DNA of 40,411 nt from Gallionellales bacterium RIFCSPLOWO2_02_FULL_59_110 (GTDB lineage: Bacteria; Pseudomonadota; Gammaproteobacteria; Burkholderiales; Gallionellaceae): contig MGXA01000064.1 of NCBI GenBank assembly GCA_001801215.1, positions 1 to 40,411 of the forward strand, read 5' to 3'. This document shows positions 31,979-36,072 of this stretch, piece after piece. The position numbers and the translations under genes are program-made. Below the pieces are notes generated by a model. That model saw only the letters and a list, made by a program, of their open reading frames with translations. It was not told where the DNA came from and did not search any database. Position 1 is the stretch's first letter. Each line of letters opens with the position of its first letter.

Positions 31979-32431
31979 ATGGGAAAAATTACCGCTATTC
32001 TGGAGGCGGCGCAACAGCGTGCCGAAGAAATGAATCTGCCCTATGAAGGCGCGCTGCTTCCGGGCGAAGCCTATGAGATTCTGCAATCCGCGCCCGGCGC
32101 CAAACTGGTAGACGTGCGCACCCGCGCCGAACTGGACTGGGTGGGGCGCATATCCGGCGCCGTGGAAATCGAATGGGCAAACTATCCCGGCATGAAACCC
32201 AACCCGCATTTCATCGCCCAGCTCGAACAGCAAATGGATAAAGAAGCCTTGACGATATTCATCTGCCGCAGCGGAGTGCGCTCGCACCACGCCGCCGCAG
32301 CCGCCACCCAGGCAGGTTACAGCGACTGTTACAACGTGCTGGAAGGTTTCGAAGGCGACAAAGGCGGTGACGGGCACCGCAATACTATCGGCGGGTGGCG
32401 CGTGGCCGGGTTGCCGTGGGAGCAGGGCTAA
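31979..32431 (+). CDS. Rhodanese-like sulfurtransferase domain protein
   Basis: A 150-residue single rhodanese domain. Residues KLVDVRTRAELDWVGRISGA are the N-terminal rhodanese signature, and IFICRSGVRSHHAA contains the active-site Cys in a CRSGVRS loop. It probably carries persulfide sulfur in the cytoplasm. No signal peptide is seen. It stands alone, divergent from the cation transporter, and marks the last ordinary gene before the accessory region begins. Confidence 0.9.
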   Translation: MGKITAILEAAQQRAEEMNLPYEGALLPGEAYEILQSAPGAKLVDVRTRAELDWVGRISGAVEIEWANYPGMKPNPHFIAQLEQQMDKEALTIFICRSGVRSHHAAAAATQAGYSDCYNVLEGFEGDKGGDGHRNTIGGWRVAGLPWEQG

Positions 32432-32458
32432 TCACGGCAGCTTGAAGCAGTAAACCTG

Positions 32459-32632
32459 AAAACGGTCGCTCACGACCTTCAGGTCTAGACCCGGAGCGAT
32501 CATCAGTCGATGTACCCGGAGTGGCTGGTTCTCGGCCTGCGGACGGTGGCATCCAGACTGTCTTATGACCGGTATGTGGTCAAAACGGACTGTCGCTCCA
32601 TTATGGCTGAATTGACTATGAGCGACCGTTTT
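32459..32632. repeat. Inverted repeat with 14-bp perfect arms
   Basis: aaaacggtcgctca (32459-32472) and tgagcgaccgtttt (32619-32632) are exact inverted copies around 146 bases. A degenerate third copy (aaaacggactgtcgctcc) lies at 32582-32599. No gene is visible inside. It sits at the boundary between the rhodanese gene and the retron and may be a relict of a small mobile element. Confidence 0.6.
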
Positions 32633-32730
32633 GTGGCATGCAGTTACAGTAATTGCTACAGACCCAATCAAGTTACGCGTTGCCTGACCTCTTCTGCCTA
32701 CCCCTTATTGATTATTGAAATTAGCCAAGC

Positions 32731-32753
32731 AATATTCACCCACGGTGAATATT
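32731..32753. promoter_or_regulatory. Operator-like palindrome next to the retron promoter
   Basis: aatattcacc-cac-ggtgaatatt is a perfect 10-bp inverted repeat with a 3-base centre. It ends two bases before the -35 box of the predicted promoter. Its size and symmetry are those of operators bound by dimeric XRE-family regulators, and such a regulator is encoded downstream at 33391-33693. Confidence 0.6.
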
Positions 32754-32755
32754 TA

Positions 32756-32784
32756 TTGACATCGAGCGTAGTTCCTGTTCCAAT
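32756..32784 (+). promoter_or_regulatory. Sigma-70 promoter for the retron operon
   Basis: TTGACA (32756-32761) is a consensus -35 box and TCCAAT (32779-32784), 17 bases on, is a 4-of-6 match to the -10 box. Transcription would start near 32791 and cover the candidate ncRNA and the three downstream genes. Confidence 0.5.
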
Positions 32785-32906
32785 GCTCACAGGCCGAGTG
32801 TTACCGCTTGGGTTGTTCTTTAAGAGTGTGATTCCTTCTTCCACAAAAGCAGAAGCCAGTTAAGTGACTTCGTTTATGCGAAGTCGCCTTGCTGTTCCAG
32901 CAGCGA

Positions 32907-33077
32907 GGCCAAATTGTCAGGCACCGGGCGCTGTCGTATGGCACGCGCAACGACCGAAGGTGATGTACTAAGTGTCAGCAACATGGGGACTTAGATGCCT
33001 TAGAACTGGTGATGGGCTTGTAGTATCGGGTTGGCTCCTTCCGGCTGATGCCTTGTGGGGACTTGGGCAATTTCGCC
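32907..33077 (+). ncRNA. Candidate retron msr-msd RNA
   Basis: The stretch before the first retron gene has no protein-coding signal on the plus strand but is rich in hairpins. Positions 32907-32918 (ggccaaattgtc) pair with 33066-33077 (ggcaatttcgcc) over 12 positions with one C-C mismatch and one G-T pair, the place and form expected for the a1/a2 stem. Inside are stems gtcgt/acgac (32933-32954) and ctaagt/acttag (32968-32994). Two further hairpins lie just before it (32866-32885 and around 32890-32904), so the real 5' end might be further left. The branching G and msd limits are not identified. Confidence 0.45.
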
Positions 33078-33095
33078 CGGATTGAAGGAGTTAAC

Positions 33096-33332
33096 ATGCA
33101 GCAACATTCTTTAGAGAACTGCATCCGCACGCTTGAAAAGCTGCGTGATGTGTATCACAGCCAACTCGATGCAAGTGTTCTGGCTGAATTGGAAGCCGTG
33201 ATCTCTGGCCTCAAAAAGGTCATTGATCACAAGGAAAGCGAAGTGCAGCTCGGCAATTTGGGCTTGCGCGCAATCCAGGCAATCTCTCTTGTTATTAGCC
33301 TTGTGAGCAATCTCAAGGATTTAATGAAGTGA
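33096..33332 (+). CDS. Small retron-associated protein of unknown function
   Basis: A 78-residue protein with a good ribosome site (GGAG, 8 bases before ATG 33096). It looks all-helical: an N-terminal heptad-like region (LENCIRTLEKLRDVYHSQLD and on to about residue 48) and a C-terminal hydrophobic or amphipathic helix (LRAIQAISLVISLVSNLKD). I do not recognise the family. As first gene of the retron operon it is a candidate effector, perhaps acting at the membrane through the C-terminal helix, or an RNA/DNA-binding accessory. The assignment as effector is inference from position. Confidence 0.7.
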   Translation: MQQHSLENCIRTLEKLRDVYHSQLDASVLAELEAVISGLKKVIDHKESEVQLGNLGLRAIQAISLVISLVSNLKDLMK

Positions 33333-33390
33333 TTCAATGCAGCCAACGAATGCGGCAAGCCCATTCATTTTTTTGATTACTGGTTACAAC

Positions 33391-33693
33391 ATGAACATTG
33401 GTAGCGCAATTCAAATGTGTCGAGCAAAACGTCGCTTATCTCAAGCGGAGGTGGCTCGTCGCGCCGAGTGTTCGGTGTCTTACCTCTCAATGCTGGAAAA
33501 CTCCCAGCGTGACCCAACCCTTTCAACTGTCACCAAAATAGCGCAGGCTTTAAATATGCCTGTAGAAATGCTATTTTTTCTGGGCGCTGAAAAAGGTGAA
33601 CTAGCCGGAATCGACAAGCAATTAGCTGGTCAGCTTGCAATGGCAGCATTGGAACTTCTCAATGACCCCACCCCTGCTGAAGCCCAAGTATGA
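33391..33693 (+). CDS. XRE-family helix-turn-helix regulator of the retron
   Basis: A 100-residue protein with an N-terminal XRE/Cro domain: IGSAIQMCRAKRRLSQAEVA, then RRAECSVSYLSMLENSQRDP and TLSTVTKIAQALNMPVEMLF. The C-terminal 40 residues are acidic and may mediate dimer or partner contact. ATG 33391 starts the domain in the usual way; the in-frame ATG 33337 would add 18 residues, and neither has a clear ribosome site. Its end overlaps the reverse transcriptase start by 32 bases, so the two are coupled. It may repress the operon at the palindrome 32731-32753 or be part of the toxin-antitoxin logic of the retron. Confidence 0.85.
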   Translation: MNIGSAIQMCRAKRRLSQAEVARRAECSVSYLSMLENSQRDPTLSTVTKIAQALNMPVEMLFFLGAEKGELAGIDKQLAGQLAMAALELLNDPTPAEAQV

Positions 33694-34624
33694 TCTAAAA
33701 CCGATCCGCGATATTTCTGCGCTTGCGCTCTCATTGGGTATGCCGGAAAAATTATTAATCGACGTTGCCGCCCAAGCGGACACCTTGTATCGTAAAGCCA
33801 AGCCAATAGTAAAACCTGATGGCTCCATTCGCCGGCCATTTGACGCATTACCTCCGCTTAAACCCATACAGCGCCGTATCAAAGATAGAATTCTCAAGCG
33901 CGTTGAATTCCCAGAATATCTGACAGGAAGCCTAGCGGGGCGTGATTACCGCACCAATGCTGCGATGCACGCAGGGGCAAAAATTGTAATCTGTGAGGAC
34001 GTTGAGGGCTTCTTTCCCTCCACCAAGCGGGAGAGGGTTATGGATATTTGGCTAAATTTCTTTCGCTTCTCGGAAGACGTAGCCAACCTGCTTACCAGCC
34101 TGACGACCAAGGAAGGTGAGTTGCCACAAGGCGCCATCACGAGTTCATACTTGGCGAACCTTGCTTTCTGGAATCAAGAACCACGATTACAAGCCAAGCT
34201 GGCGAAGAGGGAAGTTGTTTACTCACGATACGTTGATGACATAGCAGTCTCGTCAAAACAAACCCTGACCAAAGAGGAGCAAACCGCACTCATTGCGCAA
34301 ATATATGGAATGCTGAAACGACAAGGATATAAAGCCAAGCGACGCAAGCATGAAACATTTACCAGTGGACGGAGAATGCTTACAACCAAGCTAATGGTAA
34401 ATCGCAAGCCAGCGCTTCAGACCAAGGAGCGGCAGAATATTCGTGCTGCCGTTCACGCACTGGAACAGCGGATCGCATCCGGGGAAAGAGGTTTGGGAAT
34501 TAAAACAGAGTTAAACCGTGCGACCAGTCGAGTAGGTCGCCTTGGAACACTTCACCCTACAGAAGCAAAGCCGCTCAAATTGAGGCTTAGCCACGTTCGT
34601 CATTTGACGAACAACCGCATGTAG
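33662..34624 (+). CDS. Retron reverse transcriptase
   Basis: A 320-residue RNA-directed DNA polymerase. Motifs in order: KPDGSIRRPF and PLKPIQRRI (fingers, residues 51-73), the retron-specific NAxxH as NAAMH (99-103), motif A ICEDVEGFF with catalytic Asp 113, LPQG (154-157), and motif C YVDD (190-193). A thumb segment TTKLMVN (241-247) stands where retrons have VTG. No maturase, endonuclease or protease domain is present, so a group II intron or DGR enzyme is unlikely. It would copy the msd part of the neighbouring RNA into branched msDNA. Codon use and AT content differ from the core genes. Confidence 0.9.
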   Translation: MTPPLLKPKYDLKPIRDISALALSLGMPEKLLIDVAAQADTLYRKAKPIVKPDGSIRRPFDALPPLKPIQRRIKDRILKRVEFPEYLTGSLAGRDYRTNAAMHAGAKIVICEDVEGFFPSTKRERVMDIWLNFFRFSEDVANLLTSLTTKEGELPQGAITSSYLANLAFWNQEPRLQAKLAKREVVYSRYVDDIAVSSKQTLTKEEQTALIAQIYGMLKRQGYKAKRRKHETFTSGRRMLTTKLMVNRKPALQTKERQNIRAAVHALEQRIASGERGLGIKTELNRATSRVGRLGTLHPTEAKPLKLRLSHVRHLTNNRM

Positions 34625-34667
34625 CTGGAGCCTTGGGCTGTGCTGCGTGCCAACTTTTTGCTTGCTG

Positions 34668-34976
34668 TTAATGCGAATGCGTTTTGAGATACTGATCGCA
34701 ACGATCAGCGGCAACAAACTGCAGAATCGCCTTCACGTCGTCGGAACATGATTTGAACACTAGACGGCTCAATACGTCGGGGCCATGTTGAAGAATCAAC
34801 ACCCCGACGAGACCGTCGATGAATGACTGGGTAGCTTCAACGCCAGAGAAATCGAGAACGACCTCTGTGCCTTGAGCCAAGGCGATCTCAATCTCATCCC
34901 TGACCGGAGCTGCACTTAACCGGGGGCCGACAAGCCGACCGTGGGCATATTGGCTCAGTACAATTTTAGTATTCAT
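34668..34976 (-). CDS. STAS-like domain protein (DUF4325)
   Basis: A 102-residue protein resembling the STAS-like DUF4325 family: N-terminal KIVLSQYAHGRLVGPR, then GTEVVLDFSGVEATQSFIDG, a STAS-type strand and loop with the serine in the place where anti-sigma antagonists are phosphorylated, and a helical C-terminus. ATG 34976 lies 8 bases after the toxin-like gene, so it is the third gene of that operon. An in-frame TTG at 34988 is less likely. Its role with a toxin-antitoxin pair is unknown. It converges with the reverse transcriptase gene. Confidence 0.7.
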   Translation of the reverse strand: MNTKIVLSQYAHGRLVGPRLSAAPVRDEIEIALAQGTEVVLDFSGVEATQSFIDGLVGVLILQHGPDVLSRLVFKSCSDDVKAILQFVAADRCDQYLKTHSH

Positions 34977-34984
34977 GCAACATA

Positions 34985-35389
34985 TCAAAGCTTCACCTGC
35001 TCAAACATTCCCTTGCCGCTAAAATTCCATTTAACCTTAAACGCAGCACCGCCTTGGATACCACCAGCCTGCTCGATAATGCGTGGCCACCATTTAACAA
35101 GATTGTGAGCCTTCTCCCAGAACTTGTGATCCTTCCAAGACTTATCCAAGAAAAAAACCAGCAAACCAGCTCTGCGCAACGCCTCACGCTCCAAGCCTTT
35201 GTTTAGATTGTCGTGCGTAACAACGATCCAACCTTCCTCGTTCGACAAGCTCTTGATCCAATCAACGTCTGGCGTATCGGTAGCAAAACGATCTTTCAGG
35301 TGAAGTACAACGTGATTTTCTGGCTTAGAAAGTTCTCGCAACGCATGCGCGAGAGCTGGGGGAAGGTTATTGTCAACGAAGAATTTCAC
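34985..35389 (-). CDS. PIN-like toxin, VapC45/DUF5615 type
   Basis: A 134-residue protein with the short PIN-like fold of DUF5615: FFVDNNLPPALAHAL at the N-terminus (Asp 6), DTPDVDWIKSL, and IVVTHDNLNKG with a second acidic cluster. These would hold the metal of an RNase. The partner upstream is a DUF433-type antitoxin, matching the VapB45-VapC45 layout of Mycobacterium tuberculosis. The start overlaps the antitoxin stop as ATGA. Targets are unknown. Confidence 0.75.
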   Translation of the reverse strand: MKFFVDNNLPPALAHALRELSKPENHVVLHLKDRFATDTPDVDWIKSLSNEEGWIVVTHDNLNKGLEREALRRAGLLVFFLDKSWKDHKFWEKAHNLVKWWPRIIEQAGGIQGGAAFKVKWNFSGKGMFEQVKL

Positions 35390-36072
35390 GCCGCCAATCG
35401 TTCTTCAAAGCGAACCGCCGCCTCTACCGCGCTTAAGGGTACCTCGTACAGCTTGGCTACATATTGCTTGCTTTCCTCAGCCTTGAAAGCGTCATAAAGA
35501 ATAGATGTCCTGACACTTCCATTCGTAACAATGGGTTTGCCAAAAGCAATAGTCGGATCAAGCACAATGGCCTTGCTGCGTACTACCGGATACCAGCAGG
35601 ATGCCAGTTCATCACGCCCGAATTCAATACCGCGATATAGCGATGGCTCAATGATTTTAGTAAATGCGTATTGCCTTTTAGCCAGATCGAGCAACTGTGT
35701 TTCGCCAGCTTCTTCCAGCGCAGTGGCAAAAATACTCCGCCCGTCTGTTTGAAAACGCTTGCAAGTAAAAGGGTAGGGGTGATCAAATAATTCACGCGCA
35801 TGCTGGCTTGCAAGGCGAATGGTTTGCAAGCTAACACCATACTTACGGAATGCTTGAACGAAACGAACCTCCAGCAAATCGTGAAAGCTAATTCCCTCGA
35901 TCTCTGATTCAGCCAGCTCAGTCTGCCAAAGAGGGGCGCTGTTCACTCGCTCTTCTGAACCACGCGCCTTGTAGACGTGACCCTTCAACCAACGGCGCAG
36001 GTCTTGCGCAGGCGCATTGGTCAGTTTCGCTGCTTCTTGAAAGGTATAGAGGCCAATTCCGATCAAATTCAT
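35386..36072 (-). CDS. DUF433-type antitoxin, VapB45-like
   Basis: A 228-residue protein with two parts. The N-terminal GLYTFQEAAKLTNAPAQDLR followed by RWLKGHVYKA is a MerR-like winged-helix reading head. The C-terminal region (VVRSKAIVLDPTIAFGKPIV then a SVRTSILYDAFKAEES helix) is the DUF433 domain that binds the PIN-like toxin. It is translated just before the toxin, as usual for antitoxins, and probably represses its own promoter. Confidence 0.78.
   Translation of the reverse strand: MNLIGIGLYTFQEAAKLTNAPAQDLRRWLKGHVYKARGSEERVNSAPLWQTELAESEIEGISFHDLLEVRFVQAFRKYGVSLQTIRLASQHARELFDHPYPFTCKRFQTDGRSIFATALEEAGETQLLDLAKRQYAFTKIIEPSLYRGIEFGRDELASCWYPVVRSKAIVLDPTIAFGKPIVTNGSVRTSILYDAFKAEESKQYVAKLYEVPLSAVEAAVRFEERLAA

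Follow-up and report, generated by a model that had tools for sequence, protein, structure and literature searches.

A type VI retron operon with a structured leader that carries a putative boxB-boxA element and a locus-matched direct repeat

The closest described relatives of the locus analyzed here are the type VI retrons, which reportedly form part of the retron type scheme of Mestre et al. 2020. As modeled in PADLOC, these systems comprise three protein families which are the same, and in the same order, as those of the present operon, with no difference at the protein level. The protein part of the system therefore is already known, and the leader anatomy is the new part: no study of the type VI effector mechanism and no description of type VI leaders was found in the openly licensed literature that was searched. 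Retron Eco1 (Ec86) resembles the locus in having an a1/a2 basal stem, a related reverse transcriptase (RT; 2e-15) and the motif TCTGA at both ends of its msd, but it possesses a different effector and a shorter repeat that is not kept in a relative. In ribosomal RNA leaders, boxB, boxA and boxC constitute an antitermination signal according to the available part of PMC10250234. Among defense RTs, the RNAs of DRT10 carry elements A and A' that are identical to each other even though their letters change, and the downstream copy, A', re-aligns the cDNA end so that tandem repeats are generated (PMC12632851, available part). In DRT2, flanking ACA motifs accompany a unit of ~120 bp in concatemeric cDNA (PMC12039810, available part).

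The window, which is the whole 40,411-nucleotide stretch of DNA that was analyzed, carries the operon on the plus strand between positions 32731 and 34624 in the order operator, promoter, structured leader, small protein (SP) gene, XRE gene and RT gene (Table 1). The preliminary description had listed a hairpin-rich leader, a 78-residue protein as the first gene, an XRE protein and an RT with NAAMH and YVDD motifs, all of which were found. The XRE open frame extends over 33337-33693, and the gene more likely is the segment for 100 aa given in Table 1 because homologues start at the internal ATG (MNIG...). The XRE and RT genes share 32 bases. No clear Shine-Dalgarno sequence is present in the 58 bases (33333-33390) that separate SP from the probable start of XRE; the gap at the same place in locus L024, the plasmid copy of Pseudomonas sp. 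BYT-1, is comparable at 53 bases. Just 5' of the operon, an inverted repeat with perfect 14-base arms (AAAACGGTCGCTCA plus complement, 32459-32472 and 32619-32632) was discerned by eye; the arms are ~160 bases apart and resemble the termini of a very small mobile element. Downstream, the minus-strand cluster of three genes looks like a toxin-antitoxin pair plus an extra gene. Beyond it on the minus strand are genes for type I restriction S and M subunits, and then a 490-aa frame which reaches the end of the window and probably encodes the type I restriction R subunit.

Table 1. Positions in the window of the operon features and of the neighboring gene cluster.
Feature	Position	Strand	Basis
Operator-like palindrome AATATTCACCCACGGTGAATATT, probable XRE site	32731..32753		direct reading
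Putative promoter: TTGACA 32756-32761, 17-base spacer, TCCAAT 32779-32784	32756..32784	+	direct reading
Stem I, boxB-like hairpin at RNA 5' end	32794..32811	+	covariation
boxA GTTCTTTAAGA	32815..32825	+	exact match to GYTCTTTAANA, published consensus (PMC5725501, available part)
a1, outer basal stem 5' strand	32829..32838	+	pairs with 33084-33093
b1, inner basal stem 5' strand	32840..32846	+	pairs with b2
Two msr-like hairpins (32864-32887; 32888-32907)	32864..32907	+	minimum-energy fold; similar in close group by eye
Direct repeat A, TGGGGACTT	32984..32992	+	fixed-window repeat search
b2, inner basal stem 3' strand, overlaps start of A'	33053..33059	+	pairs with b1
Direct repeat A', TGGGGACTT	33056..33064	+	72 nt after A
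Hairpin between A' and a2	33063..33080	+	minimum-energy fold
a2, outer basal stem 3' strand, contains Shine-Dalgarno of SP	33084..33093	+	a1 pairing
SP, small helical protein, candidate effector	33096..33332	+	78 aa; PADLOC SP_VI 2.5e-30
XRE-family protein	33391..33693	+	100 aa; PADLOC HTH_VI 3.1e-25; Pfam HTH_3 1.4e-13
Retron reverse transcriptase	33662..34624	+	320 aa; PADLOC RT_VI 6.8e-73, best among 69 families
DUF433/HTH_66 gene, PIN-like gene, DUF4325 (STAS-like) gene	34668-36072	minus	three-gene cluster

Judged from its sequence, the operon is a member of a known, little-studied kind, the type VI retron, because SP, XRE and RT all match the PADLOC type VI models, as the preliminary description had surmised. 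The SP_VI small protein and the HTH_VI protein lie 5' of the RT in one operon, and comparison and folding revealed an upstream structured non-coding RNA with a basal a1/a2 stem. The RT scored 243.4 bits with RT_VI, with RT_V close behind at 232.5 bits, and its nearest solved relatives by sequence were the RTs of retron Ec86 (2e-15) and retron-Kva2 (1.1e-13). A grouping with group II intron enzymes is not borne out because profile matches of the RT were far weaker for models of group II introns and DRTs than for retron RT models. The NAxxH and YxDD motifs of retron RTs both are present in the protein. NAxxH had been put forward as a hallmark of these enzymes, which holds for the window RT but not universally, as the motif was aligned in 51 of 73 clade loci. 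Another typical, though not defining, retron RT motif is VTG. At this position (about residues 239-246 of P0003) the window RT has TTK; PADLOC does not require VTG, which is present in 6/39 type VI clusters. The position is mostly xTK in relatives of the window, and VNN, VHN or VTG in others.

Related loci were gathered by RT patterns from whole genomes (23), plasmids (5), genome contigs (best 80 of 176) and viral contigs (20), a set which is not a census; a first scan of genomes with a single RT as query had found no relatives. In 68 of the 80 genome-contig loci (the best 80 of 176), genes for SP and HTH lie 5' of the RT gene. Among the other 12, three (L076, L104 and L105) start at a contig end or close to one, L094 contains an HTH without an SP match, and further loci come from a sister group. 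Removal of nine duplicates and of L041, which lacks a start codon, from 83 loci with an SP match gave 73 leaders that formed 57 clusters at 80% RT identity and 39 clusters at 60%. With an SP profile (E 1e-4), SP was detected in 5/369 genomes of the window's class, in each case beside an RT_VI match. Two further genomes (G348 and G103) have an RT of the type VI clade and no SP by this profile; the divergent SP of G348 was recognized in locus L008 by a broader profile. Thus, the expectation that SP and XRE would be conserved beside this RT was borne out. The RT tree, which did not include DGR enzymes, placed the 39 clusters together with L010, L076 and L107, in which neither SP nor HTH was detected, in one clade with support of 100/93, so that the window RT falls among other SP-HTH-RT systems.

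The nearest RT clade to that of type VI (100/92) consists of six RTs (L027, L028, L096, L102, L106 and L108). It is associated with small hydrophobic proteins other than SP, and there is no HTH match. The sequence GTCTGGCA occurs twice in L027 and GTCTGGCAA twice in L028, and p 0.05 was reached in 1/6 of these loci in the fixed-window repeat test described below. A cold-shock gene, which is a feature of type V retrons, also is carried by L028. Loci L002-L005 had been considered as a type VI subgroup, which was rejected as the RT tree places them elsewhere. They form an RT lineage of their own, in which an XRE gene is accompanied by a basic hydrophobic peptide of 54-56 aa in the place of SP; their RTs are strongly matched by PADLOC RT_VI despite the separation in the tree, and the repeat test attained p 0.05 in 1/4.

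The SP protein is 68-85 aa in length in the 39 clusters (median 79). No convincing relatives were found in Pfam, PHROGs or solved structures (best structure E 0.021, by sequence search). The preliminary description ascribed a hydrophobic C-terminal helix to SP: the hydrophobic stretch is real but modest, with a best 19-residue Kyte-Doolittle mean of 1.61 in the window protein. On the same 19-residue scale the peak averages 1.45 over the 39 clusters and attains at least 1.6 in 13 of them, and in most clusters the stretch is under the level of a clear transmembrane segment. The amphipathic moment of the C-terminus averages 0.51 over the 39 clusters. Taken together, the hydrophobic peak and the amphipathic moment are more consistent with a helix that lies on the membrane surface than with a clear transmembrane helix. 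We consider SP a likely membrane-active effector, and the earlier suggestion that it is the effector remains a good guess.

The upstream region of the operon begins with the putative XRE operator. The consensus TTSACTNNNAGTSAA was matched with at most one mismatch in 50/73 leaders compared to 0.41% of shuffles. The window's site, TTCACCCACGGTGAA, deviates at two positions, one in each half, with symmetry retained; the site in the window chosen as best by script is a different one, also with two mismatches. A promoter layout like that of the window was apparent in most leaders inspected. At the 5' end of the RNA, all seven pairs of stem I changed on both sides in an alignment of 41 sequences, with 98.6% of cells paired versus 27-43% in slid controls. 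Two of the 43 candidates for this set, L085 and L100, were dropped because their boxA match is away from the stem. The boxA consensus is situated 3' of this hairpin. When the best match in each whole leader was scored, boxA was exact in 31/73 leaders (0.14% of shuffles), contained one mismatch in 16 more (3.7% of shuffles) and was missing at this threshold from 26; at least three of the one-mismatch matches (L073, L085 and L100) are away from stem I. A hairpin followed by GYTCTTTAANA thus is common to the window leader and to the rRNA boxB-boxA signal and boxA-regulated genes (PMC5725501, available part), whereas the window element is located in a retron leader and any role of Nus factors is putative, judged from the motif. 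No retron tied to boxA or antitermination was found among the matches listed in openly licensed literature, and a search of the window's assembly for 16S produced no match. By eye, the leaders of L028 and L096 in the sister clade also display a hairpin and then an exact boxA match; therefore the element may predate type VI.

The leader from 32829 to 33098 folds with a predicted minimum energy of -104.2 kcal/mol (z -3.33), and none of 200 shuffles was as stable. Rfam yielded no match within 32000-35200 up to E 5. The outer basal stem in the window pairs a1 (UGAUUCCUUC) with a2 (GAAGGAGUUA) at -15.1 kcal/mol (p 0.012 against shuffles and 0.018 against other loci), and the same stem appears in the minimum-energy fold of the leader. 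The a1-a2 pairing was assessed in the 55 of 73 loci with a usable boxA anchor, the other 18 being left out. The best contiguous helix in the resulting 28 clusters averaged -11.2 kcal/mol compared to -8.0 when a1 was shuffled and -8.4 when it was taken from other clusters (Fisher p 8.5e-10 and 2.1e-7, respectively), and p was 0.05 or below singly in 10/28 and 8/28. A looser duplex test, in which long internal loops were permitted, gave a weaker result over 28 clusters (Fisher p 7.5e-4, five at or below 0.05). Support for the inner stem b1-b2 came from 25 clusters taken together (Fisher p 3.6e-5 and 5.5e-5; singly in 6/25 and 7/25), and the stem was non-significant for the window by itself (p 0.196 and 0.122). 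The test windows were chosen after the leaders had been viewed; identical windows were used for the shuffles and other-locus controls. A stem of at least five pairs follows A' in 40/51 loci versus 36% of shuffles. Inspection by eye had suggested a third stem, Z, between core and pre-SP stretch; it was unsupported over 39 clusters and was dropped (mean -11.6 compared to -10.9 for shuffles, Fisher p 0.17, and -11.0 for other loci, Fisher p 0.37).

Occlusion of the SP ribosome site is predicted as a consequence of the fold in most clusters. The mean unpaired probability of the Shine-Dalgarno sequence was 0.29 versus 0.41 when the upstream sequence was shuffled; the site was less open than its control in 27/39 clusters (p 0.0024) and not so in 12/39. 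For the window the corresponding values were 0.00 and 0.30. On the basis of these features we propose, as a reading that we consider evenly poised between right and wrong, a type VI retron whose RNA also gates the effector gene through XRE autorepression, boxA read-through, a fold that holds back SP, and release by phage. Transcription would begin beside the XRE operator, and the XRE protein would autorepress the operon. The boxB-boxA-like 5' element, as its motif suggests, would carry RNA polymerase through the ~300-nt untranslated structured leader without Rho termination. The RNA would fold as the retron template, and this fold and the bound RT would cover the ribosome site of SP, which would be poorly translated because the 3' strand of the basal stem contains its Shine-Dalgarno sequence. 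A phage that destroyed the RT-DNA, removed the RT or lifted XRE repression would cause SP to rise and the cell to stop. The proposal presumes RT-DNA production, SP toxicity, translational gating and a phage trigger, and we infer a role in phage defense for the window system.

The gene order and association are equally expected if the locus is a canonical tripartite retron in which direct binding to the RT-RNA-DNA complex keeps SP (or XRE) inactive, and a complex of retron RT, RNA and RT-DNA is described as sequestering a toxic effector in the available part of PMC12548924. The overlap of a2 with the Shine-Dalgarno sequence then would be a mere consequence of tight packing and XRE a plain autorepressor, against which stand an a1-a2 complementarity and a low Shine-Dalgarno accessibility that both go beyond controls; we judge this arrangement to be somewhat unlikely. 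A palindromic operator ahead of a small gene and then an XRE gene also is the layout of toxin-antitoxin operons, one of which is boxA-regulated (PMC5725501, available part), yet that XRE neutralizes SP and represses the promoter while RT and RNA sense phage and upset the balance seems improbable given that SP never occurred without the RT (5/5 genomes with an SP profile match) and that small hydrophobic proteins accompany the sister RT clade without an XRE match.

The leader also carries the direct repeat. The repeat test used fixed windows 5' of SP, which reached from -150 to -93 for A and from -60 to -25 for A'. A match score of at least 8 was attained in 29/39 clusters, whereas shuffles attained it in 4.2% and pairings across clusters in 6.5%; with clustering at 80% the values were 43/57 versus 4.2% and 9.2%. 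Across loci, A is about 7-10 nt in length and the distance to A' is 61-102 nt. The repeats differ between lineages while the two copies match within a locus, as the 43 positive clusters have 33 distinct repeat sequences, for example TGGGGACGTG (L029), ACGGGGCTTC (L035), TCGACTGG (L062), GTGGGCACAG (L069) and ACGGCGGG (L084). When nearest relatives with different repeats were compared, a locus's own copies matched better than swapped copies in 39/41 pairs and equally in two. The fixed-window test (29/39) is the main evidence because this sign test was conditioned on loci scoring at least 7. The possibility that A and A' might compete for a shared complementary sequence was rejected, since 0/29 clusters, with 1.66 expected, have a 7-mer complement at another place in the leader or at the start of SP. 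In the leaders of L067 and L077, the variable region 5' of A exhibits by eye long arrays of short tandem repeats of 8 and 16 bases.

The copies lie near the part of the leader that probably serves as the template for DNA synthesis, and A/A' may be where reverse transcription ends or restarts. Tentatively, the copies could be the two ends of the RT-DNA, corresponding to initiation and termination and unrelated to re-priming, a possibility that we regard as real if on the doubtful side. In Eco1, TCTGA is found at each end of an 86-nt stretch directly 5' of a2 (L134, 600-605 and 680-685). This stretch, whose start we take to be the exact start of the Eco1 msd, has the length that is in the name Ec86. 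Only TGA is in register in a 70%-identical Eco1 relative (TCTGAA, TATGAC); as this relative is without the match, a repeat at the msd ends is unsupported as a general retron rule. Moreover, the type VI inner stem strand b2 is just before A', so A' would lie outside the template.

In a second reading, the cDNA 3' end copied from A would re-anneal at A', immediately 3' of the inner basal stem, and be extended once more, producing tandem units equal to the A-A' distance (about 60-100 nt); alternatively, the same DNA end would pair with A' on new transcripts and direct an RNase H cut just 5' of the toxin's Shine-Dalgarno sequence. We consider this pair of conjectures to be unlikely. If re-priming is true, tandem-repeat DNA would arise as in DRT10 and DRT2 from other RNAs; if the antisense version is true, the retron DNA would be the guard of its own toxin. 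The A-B-A' pattern, identical within each RNA, is found in 29/39 clusters, and the likeness to DRT10 resides in matched repeats kept identical despite varying letters. In DRT10, however, A spans 2-4 nt, units are about 9 nt long and a B of 20 nt abolished repeat addition (PMC12632851, available part), compared to an A of about 7-10 nt here. As a 20-nt insert stops DRT10 repeats, the 61-102-nt type VI unit would represent a different regime that is nearer the 120 bp of DRT2. DRT10 also is protein-primed whereas the window RT is in the retron clade, and membership of DRT10 is not claimed. In DRT2 the units are multiples of three with an open frame (PMC12039810, available part), unlike the A-A' distances; therefore an endless reading frame of the DRT2 kind is unlikely.

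In the available part of PMC8989520, the mechanism by which retrons terminate precisely is called not yet understood and the term 'direct repeat' is not used. The A/A' match in 29/39 clusters offers a concrete candidate for the site where the RT stops or restarts. If true, the role considered for A/A' would tie retrons to the repeat-making defense RTs, and through boxA, Nus-factor control would be extended to the leader of a defense system.
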